64,000 nucleotides of DNA from Actinomyces wuliandei (lineage in GTDB: Bacteria > Actinomycetota > Actinomycetes > Actinomycetales > Actinomycetaceae): contig NZ_CP025227.1 of the NCBI RefSeq assembly GCF_004010955.1, positions 1,364,001 to 1,428,000 of the forward strand, given 5' to 3'. Below the pieces are notes generated by a model, which saw only the letters and a program-made list of their open reading frames with translations, was not told where the DNA came from and searched no databases. Below are positions 15,255 through 35,040 of the stretch, in pieces (positions within the stretch are counted from its first letter, which is position 1; the number at the start of each line of letters is the position of its first letter). The translations under genes were made by a program, and so were the position numbers.

Positions 15255-15441
15255 GCGAGGCAGTTCTTGCAGCGTTCTCTGTCGTGACCTGCTGTCGAGG
15301 GTAGCGCCGCAGGGAGCCATGCAGCGCATCGCCCACGTAGCACGCAGGCTGCTGCCAGCCCGATAGTGGGTGGATGCCCACGGCTGACGGGTGCGCGTAG
15401 ACGCTCAGAGGCTGTTGTTCCTGCGCGCCATAAGGGCGCTT
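15255..15441. other. Gene-free spacer between UDPGP gene and CRISPR array
   Basis: I see no gene here. A small hairpin (GCGCC at 15425-15429 with GGCGC at 15435-15439) lies just before the degenerate array repeat. It could end array transcription, which runs leftward, but there is no U-tract. Confidence 0.4.
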
Positions 15442-15472
15442 GGTTCATTCCCTCGAGTATGAGGGGGAACAC
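15442..15472 (-). repeat. Degenerate terminal CRISPR repeat
   Basis: A 31-nt sequence beginning GGTTCATTCCC and ending GGGGGAACAC aligns with the 28-nt array repeat with substitutions and three inserted bases. It is followed by exactly 33 bases before the first perfect repeat. It marks the old, leader-distal end of the array. Confidence 0.8.
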
Positions 15473-15505
15473 CCCCCGTAGGGAGGGGGTGGCGGCGCCG
15501 CATCG

Positions 15506-18500
15506 GGCTCATCCCCGCGTATGCGGGGAACACAGGGCCGGGTCGAGACGTACCTACGGCAGCGGGGGCTCATCCCCGCGTATGCGGGGAACACCGGCCT
15601 CGTGGCGGGCCGAGGGTGAGGTAGGCGGGCTCATCCCCGCGTATGCGGGGAACACACGTCGCGGGTGGCGTCAACGACGTCGCGCTTGGGCTCATCCCCG
15701 CGTATGCGGGGAACACTTTCGATCTCCTTCTGACTGGTTCCTCGGGTCCGGCTCATCCCCGCGTATGCGGGGAACACTGGTTTCCCGCCAGGCAGGAGGT
15801 GTCTGAGGACGGCTCATCCCCGCGTATGCGGGGAACACTACCCCTCGGGGGCCGTGAGCCCCCGGGTTGAGGGCTCATCCCCGCGTATGCGGGGAACACG
15901 CCCCGGAGGGGGCGGGTACCCAGGGTCGTGCCGGCTCATCCCCGCGTATGCGGGGAACACGTGCGCCCCGTGGTGGTGTGGACCTCGTTTAGGGGCTCAT
16001 CCCCGCGTATGCGGGGAACACAGGAGGGCGGCGACGTCGTCGTAGGTCAGGCCCGGCTCATCCCCGCGTATGCGGGGAACACCTGAGGAACGTGGTGATG
16101 GTGGTCCACGCAGTGGGCTCATCCCCGCGTATGCGGGGAACACTCCAGGATCAGCCCAAGCGGCGGGCACAGCCGGGGCTCATCCCCGCGTATGCGGGGA
16201 ACACGTGACCGAGATTGCGCCCTCGCTCGGGTCGGCGGGCTCATCCCCGCGTATGCGGGGAACACACGCCGCCAACTCCGACAGACTTCAGGGCCGCCGG
16301 CTCATCCCCGCGTATGCGGGGAACACCCCCGGTGGGTCGTACCCGTGCTCCTGGGTCACGGCTCATCCCCGCGTATGCGGGGAACACCCGAGGGGGTGCG
16401 TGACCCGAAGCCTGGGGACCGGCTCATCCCCGCGTATGCGGGGAACACGAGGCCGACCGCCCCCACGACGCCGACCAGTACGGCTCATCCCCGCGTATGC
16501 GGGGAACACCAGAAGCACGCACCCCTGGCGACAGCACCCTTCGGCTCATCCCCGCGTATGCGGGGAACACCGCTGGACCTTCTCCGCCAGGTCGCTCCAG
16601 GCCGGCTCATCCCCGCGTATGCGGGGAACACCTGGCTGGCTCTGTAGGCAGAGTGGGCCAGCTGGGCTCATCCCCGCGTATGCGGGGAACACCATCTTGG
16701 TGGCCGTTTTTAAAACACGGCCATCGGCTCATCCCCGCGTATGCGGGGAACACAGCACCGGTCCGTGCTCGGGATCGCCGACGACGGGCTCATCCCCGCG
16801 TATGCGGGGAACACGGGGAGGCTGCTCCGCCATCTCCCGGATCGCCCGGCTCATCCCCGCGTATGCGGGGAACACCCGTGGCGGCGGCCTGCGCCTCCAC
16901 GGCGCTTGGGCTCATCCCCGCGTATGCGGGGAACACGCGGATCAGACTGGAGGGTGGTGTGTCGAGTAGGGCTCATCCCCGCGTATGCGGGGAACACGCC
17001 GCCCCGTCGGGCTTTTTCTCCCGTTCCTGGGGCTCATCCCCGCGTATGCGGGGAACACATCGCCCACGCGGTCGACAGGTACATGACCGTCTGGCTCATC
17101 CCCGCGTATGCGGGGAACACACGCCGATGAGTGACGGTGAGGACCTCACGCCGGGCTCATCCCCGCGTATGCGGGGAACACTCCTCGGTCTCCTGGCCCC
17201 GCGCGATGACGATGGGCTCATCCCCGCGTATGCGGGGAACACGGACATACTCACGGGAGCGGGCGATCCAGAGACGGCTCATCCCCGCGTATGCGGGGAA
17301 CACCTGGTCGCGATCGTTGCTGCGATCTGGGGGATTAGGCTCATCCCCGCGTATGCGGGGAACACGCGCCGGGGCAGGTGAGTACTGATGCCAGGGGCGG
17401 CTCATCCCCGCGTATGCGGGGAACACAGGCCAACGTCCGTGACACTTCCGAGGGCTTCGGGCTCATCCCCGCGTATGCGGGGAACACTCGGGGTTCTCCT
17501 GGTTCGCCCCCCAACCCCACGGCTCATCCCCGCGTATGCGGGGAACACAGGGCCAGGAAGGTCGCGACACCGAGGATCTGGGGCTCATCCCCGCGTATGC
17601 GGGGAACACGGTAGTGTCCATGGTGGTTCCTCTCTTTCCTTCGGCTCATCCCCGCGTATGCGGGGAACACCCTTTTCTTCTGGTTGGTGATTGCGGCTGT
17701 GAGGGCTCATCCCCGCGTATGCGGGGAACACTCGGCCTCTATCCTGGCCAGCTCGACGGCGGCCGGCTCATCCCCGCGTATGCGGGGAACACTACAGGGC
17801 GTAGTCCTCGTCGAGGGCCTCCTGGGGCTCATCCCCGCGTATGCGGGGAACACCACCCTGGCGGCCCGACGACATCTACCGGGCACGGCTCATCCCCGCG
17901 TATGCGGGGAACACCGACTATGGCGCGGGCCAGTGACGCTCTCAAGGGGCTCATCCCCGCGTATGCGGGGAACACACAGGGGAACAGGGGAACAGGGGAA
18001 CAGGGTTCGGCTCATCCCCGCGTATGCGGGGAACACCCGTCCACCTGGCGGCCGGGGACCAGCCGGTTTGGCTCATCCCCGCGTATGCGGGGAACACCGC
18101 GTCCTCGTTCTCTGTCAGTATGGTGATGCCGGCTCATCCCCGCGTATGCGGGGAACACAGCTTTGACGCGCAGGGGATGATCTGGGACGCGGGCTCATCC
18201 CCGCGTATGCGGGGAACACCGACCCCGACATCTGGGCGATGATCCTGAATGCGGCTCATCCCCGCGTATGCGGGGAACACTCAAGAAACACCTTGAACGA
18301 GTTAAGGCGCTGGGGCTCATCCCCGCGTATGCGGGGAACACGGAGCCGCAGAGGCCACCGGCCTCTCACCCGACGGCTCATCCCCGCGTATGCGGGGAAC
18401 ACTTGATGGCTGGGTGTGGGTAGGCCGCATTTGCCGGCTCATCCCCGCGTATGCGGGGAACACGACCCCGCCTCAAGGGCATTCAGGAGGTCAAGAGGCT

Positions 18501-21500
18501 CATCCCCGCGTATGCGGGGAACACTCCAGGGAGATGGACCGGTCGGTCGATGACCACGGCTCATCCCCGCGTATGCGGGGAACACGACTCCTCCCAGACA
18601 CGGTCGATCAGGGTGGTCGGCTCATCCCCGCGTATGCGGGGAACACACTACAACTCAGATGAGCCCTCCCCCCGGCTGCGGCTCATCCCCGCGTATGCGG
18701 GGAACACAGGCAGTCGAACGGAGCCCGGTTCCGATCGACGGGCTCATCCCCGCGTATGCGGGGAACACGCTGGGTCAGCGATCGCGCGTACCGGGGCGCA
18801 GGGCTCATCCCCGCGTATGCGGGGAACACGGTAACACGCTGGCAACGGCCTACATCCAACTGGGCTCATCCCCGCGTATGCGGGGAACACAACGCCAAGG
18901 CGTCCGGTAACCTCGGTAGCCTCGGCTCATCCCCGCGTATGCGGGGAACACGGTCCGAGTTCCAGCAGCGTGTAGATGAGATGGGGCTCATCCCCGCGTA
19001 TGCGGGGAACACCAGTTGGCCAACACGGGGGCACGTCTGACAAAAGGCTCATCCCCGCGTATGCGGGGAACACCCGTTCCACAGGTCGGAAAGGAACGTC
19101 GTGATGGGCTCATCCCCGCGTATGCGGGGAACACACGCGGGACAGGGCCGACAGCACGGTCGCCGTCGGCTCATCCCCGCGTATGCGGGGAACACTCATC
19201 GGCCTCCTCAGCCACACTGGCCGCCCAGGGCTCATCCCCGCGTATGCGGGGAACACGGACGAGACTGTATTCCAGCTGCTGGCAGCCGCGGCTCATCCCC
19301 GCGTATGCGGGGAACACGCCGGCTCCCACACGTCGGCCACCCCGTCACCGGGCTCATCCCCGCGTATGCGGGGAACACCTGCTCCACCAGCCGGAGGATC
19401 CCCCGGACCGCGGCTCATCCCCGCGTATGCGGGGAACACCCTCGGTGCCGTCCCAGTGCAGGCACCGGCCGGGGCTCATCCCCGCGTATGCGGGGAACAC
19501 GCCTGGCCACCCGTGAGGACGTCGAGCGGGCTCGGCTCATCCCCGCGTATGCGGGGAACACAAGCCACTCTACTTCTCTTAGCGGGTAGAGTGAGGCTCA
19601 TCCCCGCGTATGCGGGGAACACCTGTGCGTCCTGTCACTGGTAAGTGCTGCGGGGGGCTCATCCCCGCGTATGCGGGGAACACCTGCGCGTGGTGTCTCA
19701 TGCTGGCGTCACGGGGGGCTCATCCCCGCGTATGCGGGGAACACACGCATTTGCTCCGGGTGGTATCTGGGACGGTCGGCTCATCCCCGCGTATGCGGGG
19801 AACACCGTGGTCGCCTCGGAGACCCACACGACCGGGTCGGCTCATCCCCGCGTATGCGGGGAACACGCCATCCCAATGGCCATCCGCACGACACGCGGCG
19901 GCTCATCCCCGCGTATGCGGGGAACACCCGGCCGTCGAGGTGCCCGCTGGCAGGGGCCTGGGCTCATCCCCGCGTATGCGGGGAACACAAGGCGCCGAGG
20001 TCTGGAGGGGTGCGCCATGAGGGCTCATCCCCGCGTATGCGGGGAACACAGAGGATGCTCCTCACCCGGTTGGGGTCCCTCAGGCTCATCCCCGCGTATG
20101 CGGGGAACACGCCGCCGAGGCCCGCCACAACAGCGGGAGGCCCGGCTCATCCCCGCGTATGCGGGGAACACCGGGAGGCTGAGGACCAGGCGACGACGCC
20201 CTAGGGCTCATCCCCGCGTATGCGGGGAACACACCCAGTGACAAGCGCTGTCGCGTTCACAACACGGCTCATCCCCGCGTATGCGGGGAACACTCGCCTC
20301 ACAGTCCGAGTGGATCGACGTCGCCAGGCTCATCCCCGCGTATGCGGGGAACACCGCGGTTGACCCCGCATAGTCTGCGTCGCCCTCGGCTCATCCCCGC
20401 GTATGCGGGGAACACGCTGTCACCTCATGCCGGGTAGACACCCCGATGGGCTCATCCCCGCGTATGCGGGGAACACGGGACGCTCATGTCGGCGAAGGTG
20501 GCGTACTTCGGCTCATCCCCGCGTATGCGGGGAACACCTTCTACAGCCTCGGGGGCTCGTGACGCTCCAGGGCTCATCCCCGCGTATGCGGGGAACACGC
20601 AGCAGAAGGTCCCTCCATCCGGTCCCCTTAGGGCTCATCCCCGCGTATGCGGGGAACACTCGCCAGGTTCGTACAAGGCGTCAGGCATGTCGGGCTCATC
20701 CCCGCGTATGCGGGGAACACACGATGGAGTCGGCGCTCCAACTTCCCCGGAAGGGCTCATCCCCGCGTATGCGGGGAACACTCTCGGTAGACGCGTAAAA
20801 GAACCTCATGTCTCGGCTCATCCCCGCGTATGCGGGGAACACAAGGGGCCGACCAGCATGGGCCGGATCATCTCCGGCTCATCCCCGCGTATGCGGGGAA
20901 CACGCCACCTACACCCACCGCGAGGAGAGCCTGTCCGGCTCATCCCCGCGTATGCGGGGAACACTTATTGGCCTGGGCACGGTTATTGCAGCGAATCGGC
21001 TCATCCCCGCGTATGCGGGGAACACCTTCCAGCGCTGCTGTCTGACCACTTCTTGTACGGCTCATCCCCGCGTATGCGGGGAACACACCTCTTCCGTCTA
21101 ATAGAGCATTTTCTTCCCCGGCTCATCCCCGCGTATGCGGGGAACACCAGGACGTCTTCGCCGAGATAAAGAAGGCCTGCGGCTCATCCCCGCGTATGCG
21201 GGGAACACAGAATCACCGTCAAGGTCGAGACCGAGCGCGACGGCTCATCCCCGCGTATGCGGGGAACACCAGTTCTGCGTGCTCTAGTGGGGTCAGGTCC
21301 TTGGCTCATCCCCGCGTATGCGGGGAACACCGTTGGATCTTGGACGCCAGCAACCGGCACGCCGGCTCATCCCCGCGTATGCGGGGAACACCCTACGGAG
21401 CATGCTCCTCCACCGGTCAAACAGGGCTCATCCCCGCGTATGCGGGGAACACATGCCGATGAGCGAGAAGAGAATGGCATATTTGGGCTCATCCCCGCGT

Positions 21501-24500
21501 ATGCGGGGAACACCTTGAGGGCTCGCAGGGCTCTCCTGGCCTCTGCGGCTCATCCCCGCGTATGCGGGGAACACCCGAATCTGCTTATCACCAAGCCTCG
21601 CGTCCGGGGCTCATCCCCGCGTATGCGGGGAACACTCCTTCGCACTCCTGCTCTCGTACGTCGGCCTCGGCTCATCCCCGCGTATGCGGGGAACACTTGA
21701 TCGCAGACTCGAAGCCGGAGGCGGTGGCCTGGCTCATCCCCGCGTATGCGGGGAACACGGCGCGCTGCGAGCCGTGGAGCTCCGAGCGGGAGGCTCATCC
21801 CCGCGTATGCGGGGAACACCGTGGTACACCAGCAAGGCGTCCCCACGGATCCGGCTCATCCCCGCGTATGCGGGGAACACGTGCACCAGGCGGCGAGGGT
21901 GTCGACGGGGGTGGGCTCATCCCCGCGTATGCGGGGAACACGACGACGTACTGCCCCGCCTCGTCGGCTTGGAGGGCTCATCCCCGCGTATGCGGGGAAC
22001 ACATTTTCTCACTGTGCTCGTTGGGTGATGGCGCGGGCTCATCCCCGCGTATGCGGGGAACACACGGGCACCCCCTCGTGGTGGACGTCAAGGTACGGCT
22101 CATCCCCGCGTATGCGGGGAACACGTCCTGGTCCTAGTGACCCTGACCGTGACGGGGGGCTCATCCCCGCGTATGCGGGGAACACGGCCACACACTGAGT
22201 GTGTGGCGACATGCGGCACGGCTCATCCCCGCGTATGCGGGGAACACCGCCACGGAGACGCTGCGTGACCTGGTGGCAACGGCTCATCCCCGCGTATGCG
22301 GGGAACACGCCCCCACCGCTCCGCCGAAGACCTTGATCAGGGGCTCATCCCCGCGTATGCGGGGAACACGGCCCCGCACTGATTATCCCCCACCCCGGGG
22401 TCGGCTCATCCCCGCGTATGCGGGGAACACACCAGGACTACCTGCTCCCCGGTGGACACGCCAGGCTCATCCCCGCGTATGCGGGGAACACGAAATGACC
22501 GCCATCGAGTACACGAGCAACATCGGCTCATCCCCGCGTATGCGGGGAACACGCCCAGGGAGCACGCCCGGCGGCCACGACCCAGGGCTCATCCCCGCGT
22601 ATGCGGGGAACACGGTGAGAAGGTCGCCAACGACATCGGTGACGCCGGCTCATCCCCGCGTATGCGGGGAACACAGTTTGCCGGGGTCCCGTCGTCTGCG
22701 GTCGGCCGGCTCATCCCCGCGTATGCGGGGAACACAAGTCAGCACGAGATCGGCCGACGAGGTTCGAGGGCTCATCCCCGCGTATGCGGGGAACACGCCG
22801 GGTCCGTACTCCAACTCGACGCGGCCCGCGGCTCATCCCCGCGTATGCGGGGAACACTCCTCAGCAGCGGGGGTCTCCTCCTCGGGGTCCGGCTCATCCC
22901 CGCGTATGCGGGGAACACCGGTAGTCTCCCTGGTTCTGGTTCGCGGTCTTGGGCTCATCCCCGCGTATGCGGGGAACACGGCAAGGACTTCCCGAAGCGC
23001 GGGGACATCTCAGGCTCATCCCCGCGTATGCGGGGAACACGGGGTCTGTGCATCGGGGGTCTGTGAGGTCAGAGGCTCATCCCCGCGTATGCGGGGAACA
23101 CCTGGACTCCCTGGGGACTGGAGGGACGACCAGGGGCTCATCCCCGCGTATGCGGGGAACACGACTCCCACGGCGAGGTGACAGAGAAGGGGGCGGGCTC
23201 ATCCCCGCGTATGCGGGGAACACTGTCCTGACATAATCACTCCTGATCCTGGTTGGGGCTCATCCCCGCGTATGCGGGGAACACCGGCGACCAGGACTCC
23301 CCAGATCGCCTGAATTAGGCTCATCCCCGCGTATGCGGGGAACACACTCTCCCAGGCACAGCGGGATCTCCTATGGGCGGCTCATCCCCGCGTATGCGGG
23401 GAACACGGTTCTATCCTGATGTCTGAGACATCTGAGTTAGGCTCATCCCCGCGTATGCGGGGAACACCCCCCGGCACCAGCCCCCGCCGAGGACCCGGGG
23501 GGCTCATCCCCGCGTATGCGGGGAACACGGAAGAGCATCGCGAAGGCTATCCCTGGTAAAAGGCTCATCCCCGCGTATGCGGGGAACACTATCACGGGAG
23601 ATTTTGGTCGGGCTGGCGGGACGGCTCATCCCCGCGTATGCGGGGAACACGGGACATGGCTTGGTCTCATGAGACGCGGGCCGGGCTCATCCCCGCGTAT
23701 GCGGGGAACACGTCGAAATGTGCAGTTCGACACGGCGGTGGAGGGGCTCATCCCCGCGTATGCGGGGAACACGTGGCCGCCGAGGTGCTCAAGGCCATCG
23801 GAGAGGGCTCATCCCCGCGTATGCGGGGAACACTGGGAGTGGCGGGAAAAATGCCTACAGACTTTGGGCTCATCCCCGCGTATGCGGGGAACACTTTTCG
23901 GCTGCCTGGCTGCTATCGCAGGTGCGCGGCTCATCCCCGCGTATGCGGGGAACACGTGGGTTGCACATTGCTCATATGAGCAATATACGGCTCATCCCCG
24001 CGTATGCGGGGAACACACGTAGGGGCCGTTGGTGTCTACGTCTATGTTGGGCTCATCCCCGCGTATGCGGGGAACACTTCCAATACGGTCAAGCACCCAT
24101 GAGACAAACAGGCTCATCCCCGCGTATGCGGGGAACACACACTGAGGTCGTGTGGCAGCCCGACGACGCCGGGCTCATCCCCGCGTATGCGGGGAACACC
24201 CCGGGTACACGCCCGGCCGGGACGTGTACAACGGCTCATCCCCGCGTATGCGGGGAACACTCCTCCATGATCTGCCGCTCCCAGTCGGCCACAGGCTCAT
24301 CCCCGCGTATGCGGGGAACACCTGACCGAGGAGGGCGAGTCGGAGGTGTCCGTCGGCTCATCCCCGCGTATGCGGGGAACACCCATGGGCACCCCCTACG
24401 TGTGGGGAGGTGTCAGGCTCATCCCCGCGTATGCGGGGAACACAGATCGTGGAGCACGACGGTACCTTCGCCGGTAGGCTCATCCCCGCGTATGCGGGGA

Positions 24501-25664
24501 ACACTCCTCGCGAGGCTTCGCGACATCCTCGCGAGGCGGCTCATCCCCGCGTATGCGGGGAACACCGGCCTTGGAGGTCACTGGCTGTCCGGGGGTGGGG
24601 CTCATCCCCGCGTATGCGGGGAACACTGGACGTCCAGGGCGGGCTCGCCGAAGAAGACGTGGCTCATCCCCGCGTATGCGGGGAACACGTTGAGCCGCCT
24701 CCCAGACACGGTCGATCAGTGGGCTCATCCCCGCGTATGCGGGGAACACCAAAAGACCAAGCGCGACTTGCGTTTGACCCGGGGCTCATCCCCGCGTATG
24801 CGGGGAACACAGTGAGTACCTGGAGTACCGGCAGACCAAGTACGGCTCATCCCCGCGTATGCGGGGAACACGTCGGGTCGAGGGGCGACGGCGACCGGTG
24901 CAGGGGCTCATCCCCGCGTATGCGGGGAACACGGCCTGATACGCGTGGGCACGGGCCATGTTGGCGGCTCATCCCCGCGTATGCGGGGAACACGCGGTAA
25001 CCCTCGACCAGTTGTCCCCGTGCCTCGGCTCATCCCCGCGTATGCGGGGAACACTTCGTTGTACCCCCCATCAAGCCGGATGAGGTGGGCTCATCCCCGC
25101 GTATGCGGGGAACACGATCCGGCGACGGCTCCGCGTGACTTGGCGGCAGGCTCATCCCCGCGTATGCGGGGAACACTCAATCAGGCCCCTCGTCTTCCTC
25201 GGGGTCTGAGGCTCATCCCCGCGTATGCGGGGAACACTCCTGGGCGTAGTCCTCGTCGAGGGCCTCCTGGGGCTCATCCCCGCGTATGCGGGGAACACCT
25301 GTGCGTCCTGTCACTGGTAAGTGCTGCGGGGGGCTCATCCCCGCGTATGCGGGGAACACCCGTCCAGGAGCGCCTTGGTGACTGGGTAGGCGGGCTCATC
25401 CCCGCGTATGCGGGGAACACAGAGCATTCCGTGAGCGCTTTCTCGACCACACCGGCTCATCCCCGCGTATGCGGGGAACACAGGCGATGGCCCAGCAGTC
25501 CGCGAACACAATGCGGCTCATCCCCGCGTATGCGGGGAACACCGCTGGCGCGAGCTGCCCGACATGTACAGCCACGGCTCATCCCCGCGTATGCGGGGAA
25601 CACCTCCTCGTAGCCCACTCCCAGCACCGTCCTGGCGGCTCATCCCCGCGTATGCGGGGAACAC
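15506..25664 (-). CRISPR. Type I-E CRISPR array, 167 repeats and 166 spacers
   Basis: The 28-nt repeat begins GGCTCATCCCCGCG and ends GCGGGGAACAC on the plus strand; I read it as invariant in all 167 copies. Its core CCCCGC-GTAT-GCGGGG forms the I-E stem-loop cut by Cas6e. I counted 166 spacers, 161 of 33 nt and 5 of 34 nt, which accounts exactly for the span. The reverse complement begins GTGTTCCCCGC, the canonical I-E orientation, so crRNA is read on the minus strand from the cas2 side. The degenerate repeat at the left end agrees. Two spacers are exact copies, another pair differs at 2 of 33 bases, and a third pair overlaps with a 5-base offset. The repeat contains no stop codon in the plus frames, so long spurious open frames cross the array. 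Confidence 0.99.
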
Positions 25665-25814
25665 ACTTCTTGACCTGGGAGTTTAGCCTGGATCCAGCTC
25701 GTTCTGGTACGACTTGGCTGTGTCGGGGCGTGGTGCTGCCCACCGTGGGCGCCGAGAGCGCTGCTGGGCTCGGGCGGTGCTCCAGCCTGTGCGTCTCACC
25801 TGCCTCTTCTGCTG
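25665..25814 (-). promoter_or_regulatory. Presumed CRISPR leader
   Basis: The leader should lie between cas2 and the newest repeat, reading toward 25664. Only 18 bases separate the repeat from the cas2 stop codon, so the leader must lie inside the 3' part of the cas2 frame. The 20 bases next to the repeat (minus strand AAACTCCCAGGTCAAGAAGT) are less GC-rich than the rest. No AT-rich leader of the usual kind is present. Confidence 0.5.
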
Positions 25815-26084
25815 GACTGGCCTGCGGAGCAGCAGCACTCCGTCGCAGTCCACCGGTTCCCACTCGTGGTTGTGGGTCCGGTAGGCGAAGCCCTGTTCCG
25901 TGGCCGCGCTGAAGATCAGCAGAGCCCGACCGTCCTTGCACAGCGCCACAGTCCTTTCCCACAGCAAGTCACGCACGCGAGCACTCACCTGCCCAACGAA
26001 CACGCCGGGGCTGATCTCCAGCAGCCACTTGGTCAGGTCGCCTCGAAGTCCTGCCGGGCAGGCACTAAGGACTAAGGTCATCAT
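25683..26084 (-). CDS. cas2e: CRISPR-associated endonuclease Cas2, type I-E, with C-terminal extension
   Basis: Cas2 dimerises between Cas1 dimers to form the spacer integrase. The first 90 residues match Cas2e throughout: VLSACPAGLRGDLTKWLLEI, then GVFVGQVSARVRDLLWE, DGRALLIFSA and EWEPVDCDGVLLLRRP. The frame then runs on for about 43 residues rich in Arg, Gln, Pro and Ala with no recognisable domain, ending 18 bases from the first repeat. This is longer than the usual 90-115 residues, and the extension covers the DNA that should be the array leader. It is not a DnaQ-type exonuclease fusion. It overlaps cas1 by 4 bases (ATGA), so the two are translationally coupled. Confidence 0.93.
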   Translation of the reverse strand: MMTLVLSACPAGLRGDLTKWLLEISPGVFVGQVSARVRDLLWERTVALCKDGRALLIFSAATEQGFAYRTHNHEWEPVDCDGVLLLRRPVQQKRQVRRTGWSTARAQQRSRRPRWAAPRPDTAKSYQNELDPG

Positions 26085-27019
26085 TCCTGCTCGGCCTCCG
26101 CGTAGTTAACGCCACTGCTTACCGTGCCCAGTTCAGACCACAGCACCAGGTCGCCCATGTCCGGTGCCTCCAGGTCATCCACCTGCAGCAGGTCGCAGAC
26201 GTCTCTCACCATCCGTGGCAGGAGCCGCTCGCTCACCACCGCGTCACGGACCCGACGACGGGCAGCCGCTTCCGGGTCGTCTCCACCGGCTGCAACGGAT
26301 TCGAAGGCGGCAGGAATCGCGACCTCGGCCTTGTAGAGGTCGGCGACATCGTAGACGAAGGCTCTATCCGTACCCTGGTGGACGAAACCAAGGGAGGGGA
26401 CGCAGCCCAGGGACACCACGACGGCATGTGTCACCCCGTACAGGCAGGCGTTAGCGGATGTCAACGCCTTGTTGATCGGGTTACTGGCCTCGAAGTCCTC
26501 TACCTGGTAGTTACGGCGGTCCCACTCCACGCCGGTGCGCCGGGACAGGTCCCGGTACACTCTTTTCATCCTTGCCCCTTCCCGACCTCGCAGCTGGGAC
26601 ATGGTCAGCCTGCTGACGTCCTCGCCCTCGAACCTCATGCGGTACATGGCGCGCGCCACCTCTAGGCGGGAGCGCTGGTTGGTGACCAGTCGTGCCTGAG
26701 CCATCGCAATATGGGAAGACTTCGCTAAGGGTCTGCCGTGGGCGTAGTAGCGCACGCCCATCTCCCCGGTCCACACAGTTGTCACACCGGCGTCGCCGAG
26801 CAGGCGCATTGCCCCGTGGGTGACCCGGGTACCCGGGCCCAGCAGCAGCGCACCGAGCGTCGCCGCTGGGGCGTGCACCACGCCCTGCTGATCCGTGAGA
26901 GTCAGCGCGTTGTCGTCGCGGTGCACCGTGCAGTGCTCCGCGTACAGGAAGGACAACCGGTCCTCCACCCTGACCAGTTCCTTGCGCTCCGGGGGTGGAG
27001 CGCCTTTGGGTGCAGCCAC
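26081..27019 (-). CDS. cas1e: CRISPR-associated integrase Cas1, type I-E
   Basis: The 312-residue protein is the catalytic subunit of the Cas1-Cas2 integrase that inserts new spacers at the leader end. The N-terminal beta domain (RLSFLYAEHC, DQQGVVHAP, LLLGPGTRVTHGA) is followed by VTTVWTGEMGVRYYAHG, typical of the I-E subtype. The helical catalytic domain contains ALTSANACLYGVTHAVVVSLG with its conserved acidic and His residues nearby (GFVHQG, FVYDVADLYK). Length is normal for the subtype. It starts 4 bases after the cas6e stop and its stop overlaps the cas2 start, so it belongs to the same operon. The intact motifs suggest active adaptation, which agrees with the invariant repeats and re-acquired spacers. 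Confidence 0.96.
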   Translation of the reverse strand: MAAPKGAPPPERKELVRVEDRLSFLYAEHCTVHRDDNALTLTDQQGVVHAPAATLGALLLGPGTRVTHGAMRLLGDAGVTTVWTGEMGVRYYAHGRPLAKSSHIAMAQARLVTNQRSRLEVARAMYRMRFEGEDVSRLTMSQLRGREGARMKRVYRDLSRRTGVEWDRRNYQVEDFEASNPINKALTSANACLYGVTHAVVVSLGCVPSLGFVHQGTDRAFVYDVADLYKAEVAIPAAFESVAAGGDDPEAAARRRVRDAVVSERLLPRMVRDVCDLLQVDDLEAPDMGDLVLWSELGTVSSGVNYAEAEQE

Positions 27020-27023
27020 GGGG

Positions 27024-27728
27024 TCACACCCTTGAATGTGCCAGGGTCAGTAGTCCACAGCCGTAGGCCTTACCCCGCCCGATGCCGTTGACGAGTGCCG
27101 CGCGCAGTAGTCCCGCGTCCGTCACCCGCAGCACGCCGTCGAACTGTGCCTGGCGAAGAGTGACGCGCCCGTGCCTGCCATGCTTCGAGTCATAGCGACG
27201 GAAGCGCAGGTCCCTGCGTTCCGTAACGGCTACTTGGTGCACGACTACCTCATCATCCTCCTCGGAGGAGAACTCGGTGTCAGCGAGCACCTCGAAACCA
27301 TGCTGGGCACTCTTGCCCACCAGCCACTGTGTCTGCTGGGCGACAGTGACATGAGGCAGCACCTTGCCTCGCGGGCCCCGAGTATGAGGCTCGCTGTGTA
27401 CCGGGTTGGCGCGCAGCCGGAACTCCCACTCCTGACCCGCGCGCAGCCTGTCCAGCATCGGCTGGTAGTCCACCGACTGTGCTGGGCGTGTGACCCACCC
27501 CGCACGCTCTACCAGGTCGGTGGCATCTGGTGCCTCTGGTGACACGATGTACAGCAGGTGCGTATGCTCCGTGGAAGAGTCGAGCCGCCACAGCACCCGA
27601 CCCGTGTCAGTGTGGAGATCTGGCGGGAAGAGCGCTCTGACCGCTGCATGCATTGCCTGAGGGTCGAGCAGGAGTTCCCTTCCCCGCCTCTTACCGGGGT
27701 TAAGCAGAATTCGTGTGAAGGTTGTCAT
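27024..27728 (-). CDS. cas6e: CRISPR-associated endoribonuclease Cas6e
   Basis: The 234-residue RNase processes the array transcript by cutting at the 3' base of each repeat hairpin and remains bound to the crRNA 3' end in Cascade. It has the tandem ferredoxin-like layout, an N-terminal TRILLNPGKR strand with a following helix holding a candidate catalytic His (about residue 28, AMHAAVRALF), and the C-terminal glycine-rich loop GIGRGKAYGCGLLTL that contacts RNA. It overlaps cas5e by 4 bases. The array repeat has a good GC stem-loop, the expected substrate for this enzyme. Confidence 0.95.
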   Translation of the reverse strand: MTTFTRILLNPGKRRGRELLLDPQAMHAAVRALFPPDLHTDTGRVLWRLDSSTEHTHLLYIVSPEAPDATDLVERAGWVTRPAQSVDYQPMLDRLRAGQEWEFRLRANPVHSEPHTRGPRGKVLPHVTVAQQTQWLVGKSAQHGFEVLADTEFSSEEDDEVVVHQVAVTERRDLRFRRYDSKHGRHGRVTLRQAQFDGVLRVTDAGLLRAALVNGIGRGKAYGCGLLTLAHSRV

Positions 27729-28438
27729 GCGGACACCACCGCAGAGAAGAACGGGTCTGGTACTGCCGATCCTTCGGGATTACTGACGTCAACGGGATCT
27801 GCGGCGATGACGTCGCGCCATCCGTAGTCCCTGCGTGCCGGGTCGAAGCTCAGGGGGACGTCGCGACGGCGCGCGTAGGCCGCCTCCTGCTCACCGGGCA
27901 GCCTGTCCCGGAAGAGTGACAGGCTCATCCGCTGAGGCACGCCGCGACGGTAGTCCTGCGAGGCGTGCCAGGGCTCGGTACGCAAAACGGTGTCGACGTC
28001 GCCCTCACGTACACCAATGAGCAGATCCGGACCCGCCGGGCAGGAGCGCCGCCCCAGGAACAAGGGGAAGCGAGGGGATCGCAGGGCTTCCTCCAGTGCC
28101 TCAAGAAGAGGCGGTTCCCCGCCCACGGCGGCCACAAAAACCGCATCGGTGAGGTAGTAGCGACTCACCAGCGCCAGCGGGGTGGACTTGCCCTTCTGCC
28201 AGGCTGTCGAGGTCTGAAAGTCCTTGAGGACGCGTCCTGGCTGGTCCACGCGCACCCCGAAGGACAGGCGGGCCAGGTCCTCCACCGGGTCGGTACGTCG
28301 GCGTCCCTGGGCGGCGGCCAGCAGACCCAGCACCCCCGACTTGCCCGGATAGGGGCGCGTCTGCCGTACCGTGTAGCGACTGTCATCTCCCCAGGACTGT
28401 AGTGGGCCCCGTAGCAGTAGCAGCAGCGAGTGGGTCAT
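27725..28438 (-). CDS. cas5e: Cascade subunit Cas5e
   Basis: The 237-residue protein caps the crRNA 5' handle in the type I-E Cascade complex. It opens with LLLLLRGPLQSWGDDSRY and RPYPGKSGVLGLLAAAQGR, the conserved Cas5 RAMP start, and contains PHQR-like substrate residues further on (RLSFGVRVDQPG, YYLTDAVFVAAVGG). Length is typical. It overlaps cas7e and cas6e by 4 bases each (ATGA junctions), so the three are translationally coupled and likely made in fixed ratio. Confidence 0.95.
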   Translation of the reverse strand: MTHSLLLLLRGPLQSWGDDSRYTVRQTRPYPGKSGVLGLLAAAQGRRRTDPVEDLARLSFGVRVDQPGRVLKDFQTSTAWQKGKSTPLALVSRYYLTDAVFVAAVGGEPPLLEALEEALRSPRFPLFLGRRSCPAGPDLLIGVREGDVDTVLRTEPWHASQDYRRGVPQRMSLSLFRDRLPGEQEAAYARRRDVPLSFDPARRDYGWRDVIAADPVDVSNPEGSAVPDPFFSAVVSA

Positions 28439-29571
28439 GCCTGCTGCTCCTCGCTGAGCCTGTGACCAACGGCTGATGTCACCCGGTCCACGAGCTCTGA
28501 GAGCCTTACCCTCTCACCCAGCCCTTCCATCTCCTCTCCCAGGTCACCCAGGGACAGGACGAACGAGGCCAGAGGTGCCATCTCATAGACCTCGCTGACG
28601 GAGCGAGCCTCCTTGGCCAGTGCCCGGGCTGCTGCGCGCCGTCGGCTCGTGCCCTCGTCCCCGCGTACCGGGTTCTCGAAGGCGTTGACCAGGGACACGG
28701 GACGGTCGTCACGCACGGTGACGTACACCAGCTCGGGAAGGGTGTTATTGGCGAAGGTAGTGATTTTGCCTGTGGGCAGGGAGCGGATGAAGCTGCGTAG
28801 GAAGCTGCTCGCGGCCGTCAGTGTCGCCTCCGAGTCACCCCCGAGGTTCTCCCGCAGGGACGGCACGTCAATGGTGGCGAAGCGGTAGAGCGTAGAGGAC
28901 ATCATCTGGACCGTCCCGATCATCCCCGCGCCGGTCTCCTCACCGCCCCGCTGCACCTCATCGTCCACCGCGGTGAAGTAGTCGAACTCGGGCTCAGACT
29001 CGTGCACGCCGATGGCGTGAGCGACCTGGACGGCGGCGTCCACGTTGTAGTCCGGTGCGTCGGCCACCATCCGGCCGAACATGGCCACGTCGATGCTGTG
29101 GTACTGGTTGAGGATCTCCTTGGCCTGCTTCTTGGAGGGGGCCTTGCCCCCGTTGTCCAGGATGAAGCGGGCGGCCTGCTCCACCTGCCTGTCGGACAGG
29201 AACAGAAGATAACCGGTCTCTGGTGCGCGAGGCTCCTCGTCCTCACGCACCTTGGGGTCCACCGTCTTGATCCCAGCGGCCTTGAAGACGGCCTCAGCGG
29301 CCTTCAAGGCCGTCTCGCGGCTGTGGCCCTCATCCAGCTGGCACACGCGCTTGGCCACCAGGTCCACCACACGCTTGGAGCGGGTGCCCAGGTCCGCCTT
29401 GCTGAGGTAGGAGTCGAAGTCCTTGCGGATGGCCCGCTTCCAGGCCTGGGAGGACACGCGCTGCCGTACCGCTCCTCCAAAGACCGCAGACTTCGGGGCT
29501 CCGGTGTCATCACGGTTGATGTTGCTGGGCGGCAGGGACTGCAGGGCGTGGATATCAATGGTCAGGGCCAT
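28435..29571 (-). CDS. cas7e: Cascade backbone subunit Cas7e (CasC/Cse4)
   Basis: The 378-residue protein forms the six-copy backbone that holds the crRNA spacer in Cascade. The start MALTIDIHALQSLPPSNINRDD matches the family opening, followed by KSAVFGGAVRQRVSSQAWKRA (conserved RNA-contacting segment), DVAMFGRMVAD and the later AASSFLRSFI and PTGKITTFANNTLPELV segments. I use the ATG at 29571 because the product then begins with the conserved core; the ATG at 29592 would add seven residues not seen in the family and abuts AAAGG without spacing. It lies 35 bases after cas11 and overlaps cas5e by 4 bases. Confidence 0.95.
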   Translation of the reverse strand: MALTIDIHALQSLPPSNINRDDTGAPKSAVFGGAVRQRVSSQAWKRAIRKDFDSYLSKADLGTRSKRVVDLVAKRVCQLDEGHSRETALKAAEAVFKAAGIKTVDPKVREDEEPRAPETGYLLFLSDRQVEQAARFILDNGGKAPSKKQAKEILNQYHSIDVAMFGRMVADAPDYNVDAAVQVAHAIGVHESEPEFDYFTAVDDEVQRGGEETGAGMIGTVQMMSSTLYRFATIDVPSLRENLGGDSEATLTAASSFLRSFIRSLPTGKITTFANNTLPELVYVTVRDDRPVSLVNAFENPVRGDEGTSRRRAAARALAKEARSVSEVYEMAPLASFVLSLGDLGEEMEGLGERVRLSELVDRVTSAVGHRLSEEQQA

Positions 29572-29606
29572 AGCGGAAGTGCATCCTTTCACGGTAAGGG
29601 TGGTGA

Positions 29607-30296
29607 TCAGTTCTCGGTTGTGGTGGTGTTGGCAGTGCTGGTCTGCGACGATGTCGTGTAGTGGCCTGAGGCGAAGTCCCGGCCCCAGCGCAGCAGCACC
29701 CGGTTGTGGTCGGGAAGTTCCAGCAGGCGCAGGTCTACGGCCAGGCTCCCGTAGTCGGCTCCGATGTGCTCGGTGCGCAGCAAGGTGACCAGGCTCCGCA
29801 GGTGGTGCAGGCGAGTCACCGGGTTGCGGCAGAGTAGGACGGCGTCGAAACGGGGCTTGATGGAGCTCGAGTCCCGACGGGTGTCAAGCTGCCCGGCAGC
29901 CCGGGCCAGGCTCTGGCCGGGTACGTGCATGGGTGCGGTCTGGGACTGCATGTGCAGGGCGAACAGGCACAGCGCCGCAAAAGCGGCACTCTCATGGGGG
30001 CTGGCCTCATCGCCTCCGAGAAGGTCCTCATCCAGGTTGGGCAGGAGCTCCTCCAGCGCTGCCTGCCACACCAGGGGGTCGCTGTCGGCTGCCAGACCCG
30101 CTCGGCGCCGCAGCGTGGCCAGGGTCCGCCGGGCCTCGGCCTGCTTCTGCTGGGTGCGACGGCCCAGGTAGGCATCCTGCAGGTTTGATGCGGCTGCCGC
30201 GACGGCCGCCTCAAGCCGTTCTCCCTTTCCCCTGGGGCGTCGCGGAGAATCGGCTGGTGAGGTGGTGCTGTCTGCGAGGGCGGGTGCCTCAGTCAT
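29607..30296 (-). CDS. cas11e: Cascade small subunit Cas11e (CasB/Cse2)
   Basis: The 229-residue, mostly helical protein forms the Cascade belly that stabilises the target R-loop. Recognisable pieces are LATLRRRAGLAADSDPLVW, CLFALHMQSQ, LARAAGQLDTRRDSSSIKPR (split by reading) and LHHLRSLVTLLRTEHIGADY. I start at ATG 30296, which overlaps the cas8e stop by 8 bases; the open frame further upstream lies inside cas8e. Two tails look accessory: a Pro/Arg-rich N-terminal 30 residues and a Thr/Ser-rich C-terminus. Length is at the upper end of the family (about 160-230). Confidence 0.93.
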   Translation of the reverse strand: MTEAPALADSTTSPADSPRRPRGKGERLEAAVAAAASNLQDAYLGRRTQQKQAEARRTLATLRRRAGLAADSDPLVWQAALEELLPNLDEDLLGGDEASPHESAAFAALCLFALHMQSQTAPMHVPGQSLARAAGQLDTRRDSSSIKPRFDAVLLCRNPVTRLHHLRSLVTLLRTEHIGADYGSLAVDLRLLELPDHNRVLLRWGRDFASGHYTTSSQTSTANTTTTEN

Positions 30297-31968
30297 GTGT
30301 CTCCTTCTTGTCAGGCTTGTCAGGACTGGTGTGGGGAAGAACTGCGCGCAGGTCGTGCTGGAGGCGCTGGAAAGCGGTACCAGCGGAGATGATGCGCGAG
30401 GAGCCACCCTGGTCCACCACCCGGCCTGCCAGTGCCTTGGTGCCCGCGCCACTCAGACGCGTGGCTGCCATGTCCAGGATCTGGCGCTCGACCAGCCGGA
30501 ACCAGGCGGCGAGGGAGTCGTCGGGATCCTGGCTGTCAACAGTGACCAGCCATGAGCGGAAGGCAGGCTCCAAGGTGTCGAGCACGCTCGCGGCGGCCTC
30601 GGCCTGGTAGGTGTAGTCCCCGCCTGCGGCCACGAGGAGGTTGCCGACGTAACGGCCGTAGCGCACAGAGGCCTCCCGTGCCCCCCGGCCAGCGGAGAGG
30701 AGAACCTCCGTGAGTTGGGGACTGTGTGAGATCAGGACGGAGCAGGGCAGTTCCAGGAGGGTGCTCACAACGTGGGACACTGAGGCTGCCTGGGGCCCGT
30801 AGTGCACGGAGACGAGCTCGACGGTCAGGGGCTCCTCGGTGAGGAGGCCCTCGTTCCTCAGGTCGGTCAGGGCAGTGATGGTGGCCGGGGCCTTGGGGGG
30901 CTGAGCCCCCTTGGTCCGTCCGCCGCCCGGCAGGTCGACGACGACGCCCTCACGGACCAGCAGGGGCTCCAGGCTGCGCCACACGGTCTGTTCGGTGTCG
31001 TGGGGCCGGGGGTAGAAGACGGGGGTGCCTTTCTTGGACTTGTTGGCCGAGTACCGGTAGGGCGTCATGGGGTCAGCCAGGATGTTGGCTCCAGCCTCCG
31101 GGATCTTGTCCCCGTTGCTGACCAGGACGGAGGTGACGTGGCCATCCTCCACGAACAGCCGGAGCCGCCGCGACTGCCAGGTCAGTAGGTCGCAAGGGCC
31201 GGTGGGCACCGTGCTGGGACGCTCGGTGGCGTCATCGGGCTGGCGCTCCCACGCGGGAAGGTCGGCCGCCATGTCAGCGGACATCACCAGCCGTGCCGGG
31301 GTGTTGAGGACGAGCGTCTCACGCAGGCTCCGCCCGTGGATGACCACTCCGCCGGTCAGTCCCGTCCAGCCCTGGCCGATGGGATAACCTCTGCCTCCCT
31401 TGACCCTGGGGTCCCCCAGCGCTCCCGACTTGATGCCCGAGTAGTCATAGGCCTGCAGGTGCACCGCCCAGCGAGCCGCCTCAGCCAGGGTGAGGCTGTC
31501 CAGCCCGTGCCCGGCGCGCGTGGTGAAGTAGTCCTGCTCAGCCTCCGGGACGATCCTGCGCACCGGAAGCCGGGTGCTCTTGGCCGTGTCCAGGTCTGGT
31601 ACCTGCATGAAAGGGGTCTGCGGATGGAGCAGGTCGAAGCGCTCTGCGTGCCGCTCCAGGTACTCCAGCACCACCTCGTCCCTGGCTCCTGAGCGCGCCT
31701 GAGCGAAGGCCTCCTCCCACCAGTCGTCAAAGCGGTAGGGGTCGTGCACGTCGGCCAGGACCTTGTCCGTGCGGTGGGCGCGCCAGGTGACCGTCAGGAA
31801 CAGGCGCAGGACCGCGTAGTCCTGGGTGGGGGAGTCCCCGCGCACGCGCAGGGCGTGGTGCTCGCCGTCGAACAGTTCTCGAAGGGACAGCTCCTGGGAG
31901 GTGCCGTCGGACATGTCGCAGCGGATCCAGGGGTGGGACAGGAGCGAGAAGGAGGGGGAGAAAGCCAC
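30289..31968 (-). CDS. cas8e: Cascade large subunit Cas8e (CasA/Cse1)
   Basis: The 559-residue protein recognises the PAM and recruits Cas3. It starts with SFSLLSHPWIRC and has LSLRELFDGEHHALRVRGDSP (the conserved N-terminal helix-strand region), LLHPQTPFMQV, the loop segment GGVVIHGRSLRETLVLN and a C-terminal four-helix bundle. Length is normal (about 500-560). The GTG start at 31968 is supported by AGGAGG four bases upstream. It is the first gene of the Cascade operon, separated from cas3 by 73 bases, with cas11 overlapping its end. Confidence 0.95.
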   Translation of the reverse strand: MAFSPSFSLLSHPWIRCDMSDGTSQELSLRELFDGEHHALRVRGDSPTQDYAVLRLFLTVTWRAHRTDKVLADVHDPYRFDDWWEEAFAQARSGARDEVVLEYLERHAERFDLLHPQTPFMQVPDLDTAKSTRLPVRRIVPEAEQDYFTTRAGHGLDSLTLAEAARWAVHLQAYDYSGIKSGALGDPRVKGGRGYPIGQGWTGLTGGVVIHGRSLRETLVLNTPARLVMSADMAADLPAWERQPDDATERPSTVPTGPCDLLTWQSRRLRLFVEDGHVTSVLVSNGDKIPEAGANILADPMTPYRYSANKSKKGTPVFYPRPHDTEQTVWRSLEPLLVREGVVVDLPGGGRTKGAQPPKAPATITALTDLRNEGLLTEEPLTVELVSVHYGPQAASVSHVVSTLLELPCSVLISHSPQLTEVLLSAGRGAREASVRYGRYVGNLLVAAGGDYTYQAEAAASVLDTLEPAFRSWLVTVDSQDPDDSLAAWFRLVERQILDMAATRLSGAGTKALAGRVVDQGGSSRIISAGTAFQRLQHDLRAVLPHTSPDKPDKKETHD

Positions 31969-32041: not shown

Positions 32042-34936
32042 TCAAGTTCCTCTTTGCTCTTGGGTCTCCTGGAGGCCCAGCTCGCGCTCGTAGCGCAGGC
32101 GGCGCCCCGAGACCTCACAGGTCAGCTCGCTGTCGAGCCGCAGAGCCACCAGTCCGCGCAGCAGGCCGTTAGCAGCCCACCCGATGGGTGTGGCTTGCTC
32201 CAGAGCGTCGATCGTGGTGTCAAAAGTCCGCCTCAGGCACAGTGACCTGGGCAGGCGAACCGTCGAGCGCGCCAGCACTTGAGCCGTGGCCCACCCGGGA
32301 TCCTGGTCGTCAACCAGGGTCCGCAGCACACCACCGCGTACCAGCCACGGCAGGGGCGTGTAACCTCCCGGGCGGTCAACGATGACGACGGCCTCGATCG
32401 TCGGGTCGGAGTCGCGCACCTGGGCCAGTCCCGAGGCCTCCGAGCGGGCTGAGTCCGCGATGTCCCGGTCCTGGGCGGCAAAGAGGTTACAGAGCAGTTT
32501 CGCGTCGCCTGCCGGGGGGAAGACAAAGGTGGAGGCTCGGGACTCGGAACAGGTTCGGGCCTGCCTCTGGGCCACCACGGCCTCCTGCCACACCTCCTCC
32601 CACGCAGCAGGGACCGGGGGAGTGGGGGAGTAGGTGGTCTGCACCAGGTGGGGGACGTCGTCAGGGCGGGTCAGGACATCGCCGCCCAGGGGTCCCTTCA
32701 GCAAGGTGGCGTAGGTGGCCAGGAGAAGCGCCTCGTCGTAGACGGCCGTCGATGAGGAGTCGAAGAGGTCGTTGGCGCTGCTGAGCTGCGTGCCAGCGTC
32801 GGTCTGCGGGCCAGCCCCCACCAGGCCCCGTAGGATCATTCGGGGGCGGCGCAGCCCCTCTGGCCGGTCCCCCTCAGGGCGTGCGTGCCGGTGCAGGCGC
32901 CCCAGGCGCTGGAGGATGAGGTCCATCGGTGCGATATCGGTGATGAGCAGGTCGACGTCGATATCCAAGGACTGCTCGGCGACCTGGGTGGCTACCACCA
33001 CCCGGCGGGCTGGTCGGCCTGAGCCACGGTGGGCGCGAGGTCCCATCTCAGCCACCAGCTCCTTCTCCAGGCTCACCCTGTCCCCGGCGACGAAGCGTGC
33101 GTGCAGCAGCCTGACGTCCTCGCCCATCTCCGTGCGCAGGGCTGTGTAGGCGTCCTGCGCACGGGTAACCGTGTTGCACAGCACCAGGACGCAGCCGCCC
33201 TCCTTCTCTGTGCTCTCCAGGACCGTGCGCACCAGGGTGGGTACGTCGTCGGCGATGGTGGACACGGCAGCCTTGATGTCCGCAGGCCGTGGCGGTACTG
33301 CCAGCTCCCGTGAGCCCTGCCGACTGAGCGCCGTCACCAGTGGGTAGGCGCTGGAGAGCTCTCCCAACGGCCGCTGGGCGTGCAGGCCGCGCCCGTAGGC
33401 CTCCATCAGGGTCCGCTTGATCTGCACCGGCAGGGTCGCGGAGAGCAGGACCACCGAGGTCCCGTACTCTGCCAGCCACTCAATGGCCCGTGTCAGGTAG
33501 ACGTTCATGTAGGCGTCGTAGGCGTGCACCTCGTCGATGACCACAACCTTTCCTGCCAGGCCCAGGTGGCGCAGCATCGCGTGCTTGGCCTGCAGGGCCA
33601 TGAACAGGACCTGGTCCACGGTGGAGACCACCACTGTGGACAGGACTCCCTTCTTGCGTCCTGACATCCACTGTGAGGCCACCACCTGGCCGCGACCGGT
33701 GTCCTCACGGTGGTCGGCGGTCTCATCGTAGACCTGGGCGGTGCGCAGACGCTGGTAGTCCTCGTTGAGCGCGCTCCTGGAGTGGCCCAGGAACATGGAC
33801 AGCACCTCACCCAGGTCCTCTGAGGCGCTGGCCGCCCACTCCCGGGTACGGCGGAACAGGGAGTCCGAGGTGGACATGGTCGGAGCGGCCAGCAGCACGC
33901 CGCCAGCCGGGGCGCCTGAGGACCCCAGGACCTCTGCGGCCAGTAGCGCGGCCTCCGTCTTGCCCTCGCCGGTGGGTGCCTCCAGGATCAGCAGCGTCGG
34001 GCCCTCGGCCTCCTGGCAGGCCTGGGTGACCACCTGCTGGCACGGACGGGCTGAGGCGTCCTCGGGCCAGGAGAACCGGTGCCGCAAGAAGACGTCCAGG
34101 TCGCTCAGGTCTGGCGGCTCCGGCTCCCAGGGTGCGGTGAGGTCCACCGCCGCGCAGCCGTGCTCCACCCGCATCTCCTGGTCAGCAATGACCACCATGG
34201 GGAAGGTCTCGGCGTTGGATGCGATCCAGTCGCTCATGATGACCAGTCCGGTCGCCAGCATCTGTCCCGCAACCGGCACGGGGCGGCTCAGGCGCTCCAG
34301 GGCAGGCCCCGCCTGCGTGTACTCGGTGATGAAGGCCAACAGCTCGTCCCACACCTGGAGCCAGGACTCGTCGTAGGAGTCGAGCACCGCGCTGGCCGTC
34401 TTCTCCAGGTGCTGGCTCGGCGGCACGCCATGGTGGCATCCTGCCACTGCGGCCAGCGACCGTGCCACTCTCTTGCTCAGCCCCCGGGCGGTGAGCCACC
34501 TGTCAAGGATGACTTGACTGGCCACGGAGTGGGGCATCGGGGAGGACGCCTCCAGGGTGGAGGGCTGAGGATCCAGTCCCGCCTCACGGACCCGCTGGGC
34601 GAAGGCGGCATACTCCGGGCTGCCATCCAACTGGGACTGGAACTTTCTGCAGGCCTTGCCGATGTCGTGGGTGCCAGCGAGCCAGGAGATCAGGGTGCCC
34701 GCGTCCCTGGTGCTCAGGCCGCAGGCTCGGGTGCAGGACTCGCGCAGGGCGGAGGAGGTCCAGCGGTCCCACAGGCGGGTGGCCACGCCTGCCGAGTCGA
34801 GCATGTGCTGGGGCAGGCAGAGCCACCCGGTCTCGTCCCCGGACTTGGCCCACAAGGAGCGGGCGCTGGGGGACAGCGTCCCCAGAGGGGACGTGGCAGC
34901 AGGGGAACCAGGGTGGCGGGTAGGGCTGGCAGGCAT
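32042..34936 (-). CDS. cas3: CRISPR-associated helicase-nuclease Cas3, type I-E
   Basis: The 964-residue protein nicks and degrades the DNA bound by Cascade. The HD nuclease domain is N-terminal, with QH near residue 44 and THDIGK at about residues 89-94. The helicase domain has Walker A APTGEGKTEAAL (about residue 320), the DEVH box in VVIDEVHAYDAYM (about 468), the SAT motif VLLSATLP, and motif VI QRLGRLHRH. It ends in the Cas3 C-terminal domain. I start at ATG 34936 because AAGGA lies seven bases upstream; the frame continues upstream to 35014 but without better signals. All nuclease and helicase motifs appear intact, so interference should be functional. Confidence 0.95.
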   Translation of the reverse strand: MPASPTRHPGSPAATSPLGTLSPSARSLWAKSGDETGWLCLPQHMLDSAGVATRLWDRWTSSALRESCTRACGLSTRDAGTLISWLAGTHDIGKACRKFQSQLDGSPEYAAFAQRVREAGLDPQPSTLEASSPMPHSVASQVILDRWLTARGLSKRVARSLAAVAGCHHGVPPSQHLEKTASAVLDSYDESWLQVWDELLAFITEYTQAGPALERLSRPVPVAGQMLATGLVIMSDWIASNAETFPMVVIADQEMRVEHGCAAVDLTAPWEPEPPDLSDLDVFLRHRFSWPEDASARPCQQVVTQACQEAEGPTLLILEAPTGEGKTEAALLAAEVLGSSGAPAGGVLLAAPTMSTSDSLFRRTREWAASASEDLGEVLSMFLGHSRSALNEDYQRLRTAQVYDETADHREDTGRGQVVASQWMSGRKKGVLSTVVVSTVDQVLFMALQAKHAMLRHLGLAGKVVVIDEVHAYDAYMNVYLTRAIEWLAEYGTSVVLLSATLPVQIKRTLMEAYGRGLHAQRPLGELSSAYPLVTALSRQGSRELAVPPRPADIKAAVSTIADDVPTLVRTVLESTEKEGGCVLVLCNTVTRAQDAYTALRTEMGEDVRLLHARFVAGDRVSLEKELVAEMGPRAHRGSGRPARRVVVATQVAEQSLDIDVDLLITDIAPMDLILQRLGRLHRHARPEGDRPEGLRRPRMILRGLVGAGPQTDAGTQLSSANDLFDSSSTAVYDEALLLATYATLLKGPLGGDVLTRPDDVPHLVQTTYSPTPPVPAAWEEVWQEAVVAQRQARTCSESRASTFVFPPAGDAKLLCNLFAAQDRDIADSARSEASGLAQVRDSDPTIEAVVIVDRPGGYTPLPWLVRGGVLRTLVDDQDPGWATAQVLARSTVRLPRSLCLRRTFDTTIDALEQATPIGWAANGLLRGLVALRLDSELTCEVSGRRLRYERELGLQETQEQRGT

Positions 34937-35040
34937 GAGAAGTCCTTCGGTATCGGTGGTACCAAGGAGTCTTCCACGACCCACTGACATGAATGGCCAA
35001 TCCCTGACTGACACGGTCAGCGAGACTTGGCCCCGACCCG

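Follow-up and report, generated by a model that had tools for sequence, protein, structure and literature searches.

A type I-E CRISPR-Cas locus with a long array of identical repeats in Actinomyces wuliandei

The array and its cas genes

The window, a stretch of 64,000 nucleotides from the chromosome of Actinomyces wuliandei (contig NZ_CP025227.1, positions 1,364,001 to 1,428,000), carries a CRISPR array beside eight cas genes, all on the minus strand and in the order cas3-cas8e-cse2-cas7-cas5-cas6-cas1-cas2. The features are as follows, with G015 denoting a congener that carries a related locus.

15442..15472, minus strand: degenerate leader-distal terminal repeat, separated by 33 nt from the first repeat and with homology to the terminal repeat and trailer of G015
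15473..15505, minus strand: 33-nt spacer at the leader-distal end, flanked by the degenerate repeat and the first intact one
15506..25664, minus strand: CRISPR array, 167 identical 28-nt repeats and 166 spacers by exact scan; crRNA sense GTGTTCCCCGCATACGCGGGGATGAGCC on the minus strand
24627..24660, minus strand: spacer 150 (34 nt), its first 28 nt matching a host HerA-like gene, five mismatches in the rest, no AA flank
25604..25636, minus strand: spacer 166, the newest, a 33/33 match to a host FGGY-kinase gene, apparently inserted in reverse
25665..25829, minus strand: leader region, which shares sequence with the 3' part of the cas2 frame; putative limits set by the end of the Cas2 domain match
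25683..26084, minus strand: cas2e (TIGR01873), residues 1-86 of 133 matching solved Cas2
26081..27019, minus strand: cas1e (TIGR03638)
27024..27728, minus strand: cas6e (cse3; TIGR01907)
27725..28438, minus strand: cas5e (TIGR01868)
28435..29592, minus strand: cas7e (cse4; TIGR01869)
29607..30452, minus strand: cse2 open frame (TIGR02548), the match beginning at residue 94
30289..31968, minus strand: cas8e (cse1; TIGR02547), residues 4-549 of 559 matching 3wvo
32042..35014, minus strand: cas3, HD nuclease and helicase (TIGR01587 and TIGR01596), residues 53-981 of 990 matching 4q2c

An independent exact scan of the window recovered 167 exact copies of the 28-nt repeat GGCTCATCCCCGCGTATGCGGGGAACAC at 15506-25664, spaced by 61 nt in 161 cases and by 62 nt in five, and thus 166 spacers, 161 of 33 nt and 5 of 34 nt. 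These are the very counts of the initial annotation, which had named repeat variants or a different count as grounds for doubt; no ungapped near-copy with one to nine mismatches was found within 15001-26200. The degenerate terminal repeat that it had also proposed is present, backed by the homologous trailer of G015 (91.6% identity over 1480 bp), in which the terminal repeat is less decayed. This copy escaped the ungapped scan because it differs by insertions, and since it lies exactly 33 nt from the first intact repeat, the array would number 168 repeats and 167 spacers if it were counted. The dimensions are those of type I-E, in which a palindromic repeat of 28-29 nt alternates with spacers of 32-33 nt.

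The array was oriented by the I-E repeat sense and by the leader on the cas2 side. Read in the usual I-E sense, the repeat is GTGTTCCCCGCATACGCGGGGATGAGCC and lies on the minus strand, the strand of the cas genes. This places the leader at the right, next to cas2, and makes spacer 166 the newest (spacers are numbered from low to high coordinate). The leader is 84% identical to that of A. bowdenii and 90% identical to that of G015. The cas2 stop lies 18 bp from the first repeat on the cas2 side, and the leader therefore overlaps cas2. We considered whether this overlap is a peculiarity of the locus and rejected the idea: among 73 survey loci in which the distance from the cas2 stop to the first repeat was measured, it fell below 58 bp in 39, but only in L107 and L050, the A. 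bowdenii ortholog of the present locus, was it as short as 18 bp, and this distance is thus the short end of an ordinary range.

All eight frames tested matched I-E or Cas3-domain models above the curated cut-off, including each of the signature Cascade genes (cas8e and cse2 with cas7, cas5 and cas6e); Cas3 has both HD and helicase domains, and Cas1e and Cas2e adjoin the array. The type I-E assignment of the initial annotation is hence borne out. Its statement that the cas motifs are intact also agrees with these models and with the alignments to solved relatives, near full-length for Cas1, Cas3 and Cas8e, in which the HD, Walker A, DEVH and Cas1 active-site stretches are visible. The match to the full-length Cas3 model PRK09694 fell below its cut-off (322 of 569 bits). 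A truncated Cas8e, which the end of the TIGR02547 match at residue 341 would have implied, was ruled out by the 3wvo alignment. The true start of cse2 is probably later than that of its open frame. In several survey loci (e.g., L068, L087, L099, L115 and L119) the Cas2 frames span about 290-300 residues, as compared with 133 here, and presumably represent Cas2 fused to a DEDDh/DnaQ-like domain; a solved Cas2-DEDDh was among the structural matches found for Cas2. The closest named Cas1 among the best 80 of 330 Cas1e relatives was that of A. bowdenii DSM 15435 (96%), in keeping with the Actinomyces-like host suggested from the letters alone.

The survey of type I-E loci covered these best 80 of 330 Cas1e relatives with 10-kb flanks, and many of its arrays were clipped by the flank or by a contig end. 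At least 6 of the 80 loci showed 100 or more repeats, which agrees with the earlier remark that most I-E arrays are much shorter. Passages in PMC8047081 and PMC7145573 put most bacterial arrays below 50 spacers and the record at 587; the array of Haliangium ochraceum, with 587 spacers, is likewise very long and, compared by length alone, 3.5 times the present one. The repeat core, counted in 49 genus genomes, was found in 30, and the highest counts were 252, 215, 204 (this genome, 167 and 37), 193 and 150. The label "very long" thus held in that the array is longer than most, but not within the genus, where G034 has 214 repeats in one array, G033 has 182 in one array together with blocks of 52, 11 and 9, and A. 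bowdenii has 193, made up of 151, an insert of about 0.9 kb and 42 more (L050; L209, G003:C3:1-4500). The length is high, not extreme, and is not exceptional in the genus. The A. bowdenii insert, with inverted ends, is insertion sequence-like, and the repeats beyond it are uniform. The G033 arrays (L206, L207; C1:667-707 kb) are broken by repeat-free stretches of about 1.5 kb, perhaps also insertions.

The host chromosome holds a second type I-E system (C1:410574-422651; L003, L004), with genes from cas3 to cas1 and a cas2-like stretch, and with 39 repeats and 38 spacers. Its repeat, GTTGACCCCGCACGCGCGGGGATGATCC, is unlike that of the window array, and no spacers were alike between the two arrays at up to seven mismatches.

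Within the window array, 165 of the 166 spacers are distinct, the one duplicate being the pair 68 and 161. Between spacers 38 and 160 there are 2 mismatches in 33 positions, and 51 and 151 have a 22-nt run in common. Only three spacer pairs had 12 nt or more in common; codon-shuffled sets gave one to six such pairs and, as far as tested, no shared runs as long as those of the real spacers. The neighbouring and recent spacers 160 and 161 repeat the older 38 and 68, and the changes between 38 and 160 lie at the PAM-distal end, as if 160 came from a variant of the same target. Spacers bearing hairpins did not stand out as a special class, as inverted repeats were no commoner than in prophage regions (arm 7: 5 observed, 5.0 expected).

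Protospacers and the PAM

The joined spacers were searched against 43 genus genomes, and six candidates per genome were scored. The best genome-wide E-values were obtained for G015, at 6.8e-10 (spacer 108), 2.4e-9 (spacer 3) and 8.2e-9 (spacer 117). In a comparison set of 2.55 Mb of loci, some of them chosen for spacer matches and so favouring the real set, 14 of the 166 spacers had matches with up to five mismatches, as compared with none for one reversed and two codon-shuffled sets. Spacers 46, 133 and 159, whose matches lie inside the array of G015, and the repetitive spacer 41 were left out of the PAM count. Of the ten that remained, six (3, 11, 42, 108, 117 and 162) had AA directly 5' of the protospacer; the other four had GA (121), TA (165), GG or CG (150) and CG (166). 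All four foreign matches at zero to one mismatch (3, 108, 117 and 162) had AA directly 5', where AA-adjacent positions make up 1.4-1.7%. The search for a common PAM that the initial annotation had proposed as a check thus returned an AA-type PAM 5' of the protospacer, as in type I-E systems. At six to seven mismatches, spacer 143 had AA in five of five places and spacer 22 in one, and spacers 9, 40, 69, 71 and 146 were without it; matches as distant as these are uncertain.

Perfect protospacers, with AA directly 5', were found in a prophage and a conjugative element of a congener. The protospacer of spacer 117 lies in the tape-measure gene of the G015 prophage, that of spacer 3 in a gene for a TraG/TraD-type coupling protein, and that of spacer 108 in an unassigned frame beside this coupling-protein gene. 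The array was first described as a record of phage exposure; we found that it is a memory of foreign DNA that includes a prophage, but not of phage only, as the conjugative element holds two of the four best foreign matches. A portal gene of the G015-prophage family was absent from the host genome. A search of INPHARED with the array gave no convincing protospacer, only weak single hits (best E 0.04), and its multi-piece hits were taken to be repeat-driven. Scanning of IMG/VR gave three distant relatives of the G015 prophage tape measure and one relative of the coupling protein at 52%, and none of the prophage portal or endolysin. Spacer 9 of the second array matches a G015 prophage region that is also matched by spacers of the window array, with two mismatches and an AA flank.

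Streptomyces avermitilis, as described in parts of PMC4762764, likewise has an I-E gene set in a GC-rich actinomycete, an AA-type PAM and inverse insertions, and AAN is given as its effective I-E PAM in a section of the review PMC12231136. Natural acquisition in S. avermitilis showed AAG, whereas here, as judged from the sequence, spacer position 1 is G, C or T and rarely A (5/166).

Two spacers match the host itself. The newest, spacer 166, is identical at 33 of 33 positions to the present chromosome (one strain of the species), and this self match is flanked by CG upstream, i.e., no PAM, and by TT downstream. A missing upstream PAM with TT downstream is the mark of inverse insertion described in S. 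avermitilis (PMC4762764). From the two flanks, the piece in spacer 166 probably came from beside a proper AA and was then inserted in the reverse orientation; this is a single case, in which both flanks were inspected after the fact. Such a reversed spacer would leave the host uncut. Spacer 166 is one recent acquisition and says nothing of interference. Spacer 150 resembles the HerA-like gene in the genus, with neither AA upstream nor TT downstream in the places read.

Repeat uniformity and turnover of the array

The initial annotation took the uniformity of the repeats as a sign of active renewal. The turnover stood, on the comparison of sister species, but the argument from uniformity did not, since 19 of 54 parsed survey arrays (15 or more repeats each; A. 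bowdenii among the 19) had a single repeat form, as parsed with a 20-nt seed inside which variants would be missed. Uniform repeats are common and alone are no sign of activity; they follow from the copying of the leader-end repeat into new units. Renewal is better shown by the comparison of sister species, between which repeat differences have become fixed and spacers have been replaced.

In A. bowdenii DSM 15435 (L050; same DNA as G003:C3) the orthologous cas genes and leader are 80-84% identical at the nucleotide level, and the cas region 80-83%. Its array is also uniform, but its repeats, 193 of 193 counted, depart from the window repeat in the same way (three differences in the full 28 nt where read), the array is split by the insert, and no spacer like ours was found in the main block (150 spacers) or in the second block. 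One further terminal repeat copy is altered. In the G015 locus (L131), by comparison, the cas region is 92.8% identical and the window repeat occurs in 103 of 108 repeats, and yet only three spacers are near-identical to ours and their order is different. These are window spacers 46, 90 and 133, with 1, 6 and 3 mismatches, respectively; two more spacer pairs have 14 nt in common, on opposite strands. From their sequences, the similar spacers look like separate captures of related targets.

The array of G034 (L205, G034:C1:3068001-3083000) has cas1 and cas2 at the expected side. Counted from the leader, it opens with 162 repeats of a single form, and 45 of a second form follow; next come four repeats belonging to three rare forms, two more of the second form, one altered repeat and, last, one of the first form again. 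The two main forms are three loop bases apart, with no intermediate. Such long uniform runs are most simply read as the copying of the leader-end repeat into each later unit, with older units lost in time. The jump of three bases with no intermediate, and the return of the first form at the trailer, suggest that the switch may have come about by copying of another repeat and not by new mutations. As the last intact repeat at the trailer has the leader-side form, what happened in G034 was no simple one-way replacement.

We consider that the window very probably holds a complete chromosomal type I-E immune locus, long but ordinary, in which AA-adjacent 33-bp pieces are captured, insertion at the leader is accompanied by repeat copying, and interference would be by Cascade and Cas3. 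Cas1-Cas2 would take 33-bp pieces of phages and conjugative elements just 3' of AA; the pieces would be inserted at the cas2-side leader, with the leader-adjacent repeat copied each time, and Cascade with Cas3 would then destroy matching DNA. Uniformity would follow from the origin of every repeat as a copy of the one at the leader end, together with the loss of older units. The system is of a known kind, and since several genus members have long arrays, its length is ordinary too. The analysis shows the array anatomy, gene set, PAM and targets, as well as the replaced spacers and the fixed repeat differences between sister species, and we infer from the sequences that the array is active today.

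An alternative is that the array is a relic, frozen and gaining no new spacers, its repeats kept uniform by selection or gene conversion instead of turnover. Uniform repeats alone cannot tell the two apart, and the trailer repeat of G034 indicates that repeats can also change by other routes. Nevertheless, the cas genes look intact, the spacers of A. bowdenii are unlike ours and those of G015 give only three non-collinear near-matches, the newest spacer matches the present chromosome at 33 of 33 positions, and the pairs 68/161 and 38/160 suggest that one target was sampled more than once; we regard a frozen array as quite improbable. The identical unit of repeat, spacer and repeat that occurs twice, at spacers 68 and 161, might also be taken to mean that part of the array was inflated in assembly. 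The distinctness of all the other spacers, the assembly of the genome as one contig of 3.11 Mb, and the arrays of similar size with other spacers in congeners leave this with next to no probability.

The value of the array lies in what it and its relatives show on turnover and PAM. The 166 spacers, together with the complete genome and the comparable arrays of several sister species, open array turnover to quantitative testing: the rate of spacer replacement relative to that of genes, the spread of a repeat variant through an array, and the tolerance of spacers taken from the host, which here seems to rest on their reversed insertion.

Codon phase of the spacers

The GC content of the spacers has a period of three in register with the spacer start, which none of 2000 rotations reached. 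In GC-rich genes, AA is expected mainly at codon positions 1-2 of either strand, so that with an AA PAM the first base of a spacer would coincide with the wobble position. AA was the best of the 16 dinucleotides in accounting for the positional composition of the spacers, in three backgrounds. GC by codon phase, predicted from AA-adjacent windows of prophage regions that include some flanking host DNA, was 0.753/0.635/0.597, as compared with 0.738/0.633/0.592 observed; A as the first spacer base was rarer than the 11% of AA-adjacent sampling. The spacers thus keep to codon phase in the way required by AA sampling in GC-rich DNA, and alone predict an AA PAM. Phasing could also stem from selection for targets in a coding frame, e.g., for transcript targeting, and not from the PAM. 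In 95.8% of the spacers (a raw figure without a null) one of the two predicted frames is open, but AA-adjacent windows in the prophage regions of the genus give the observed amplitudes without further assumption, and we hold selection on the coding frame to be very improbable.

Codon phase was significant at 0.01 in 27 of 58 arrays tested; 26 of the 27 were among the 40 arrays with a spacer GC of 0.60 or more, 14 of which were not significant. Among the open-licence papers listed by a literature search, none dealt with a codon-phase effect in spacers. It appears fairly likely that I-E arrays of GC-rich hosts are written in codon phase, and that repeats are replaced array-wide, maybe by multi-base jumps at the leader end; such jumps (three loop bases at once in G034) are perhaps copied from another repeat. 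If this is true, spacers alone would reveal the PAM and the coding origin of targets with no protospacer match, and the phase could be used to read out the PAM of I-E systems in GC-rich bacteria with no known phages. The same register was found in 25 of the 27 significant arrays, and register 3 in the other two (L110 and L120), because a GGGGG run in the repeat had moved the anchor by one base; another analysis placed both in register 1.
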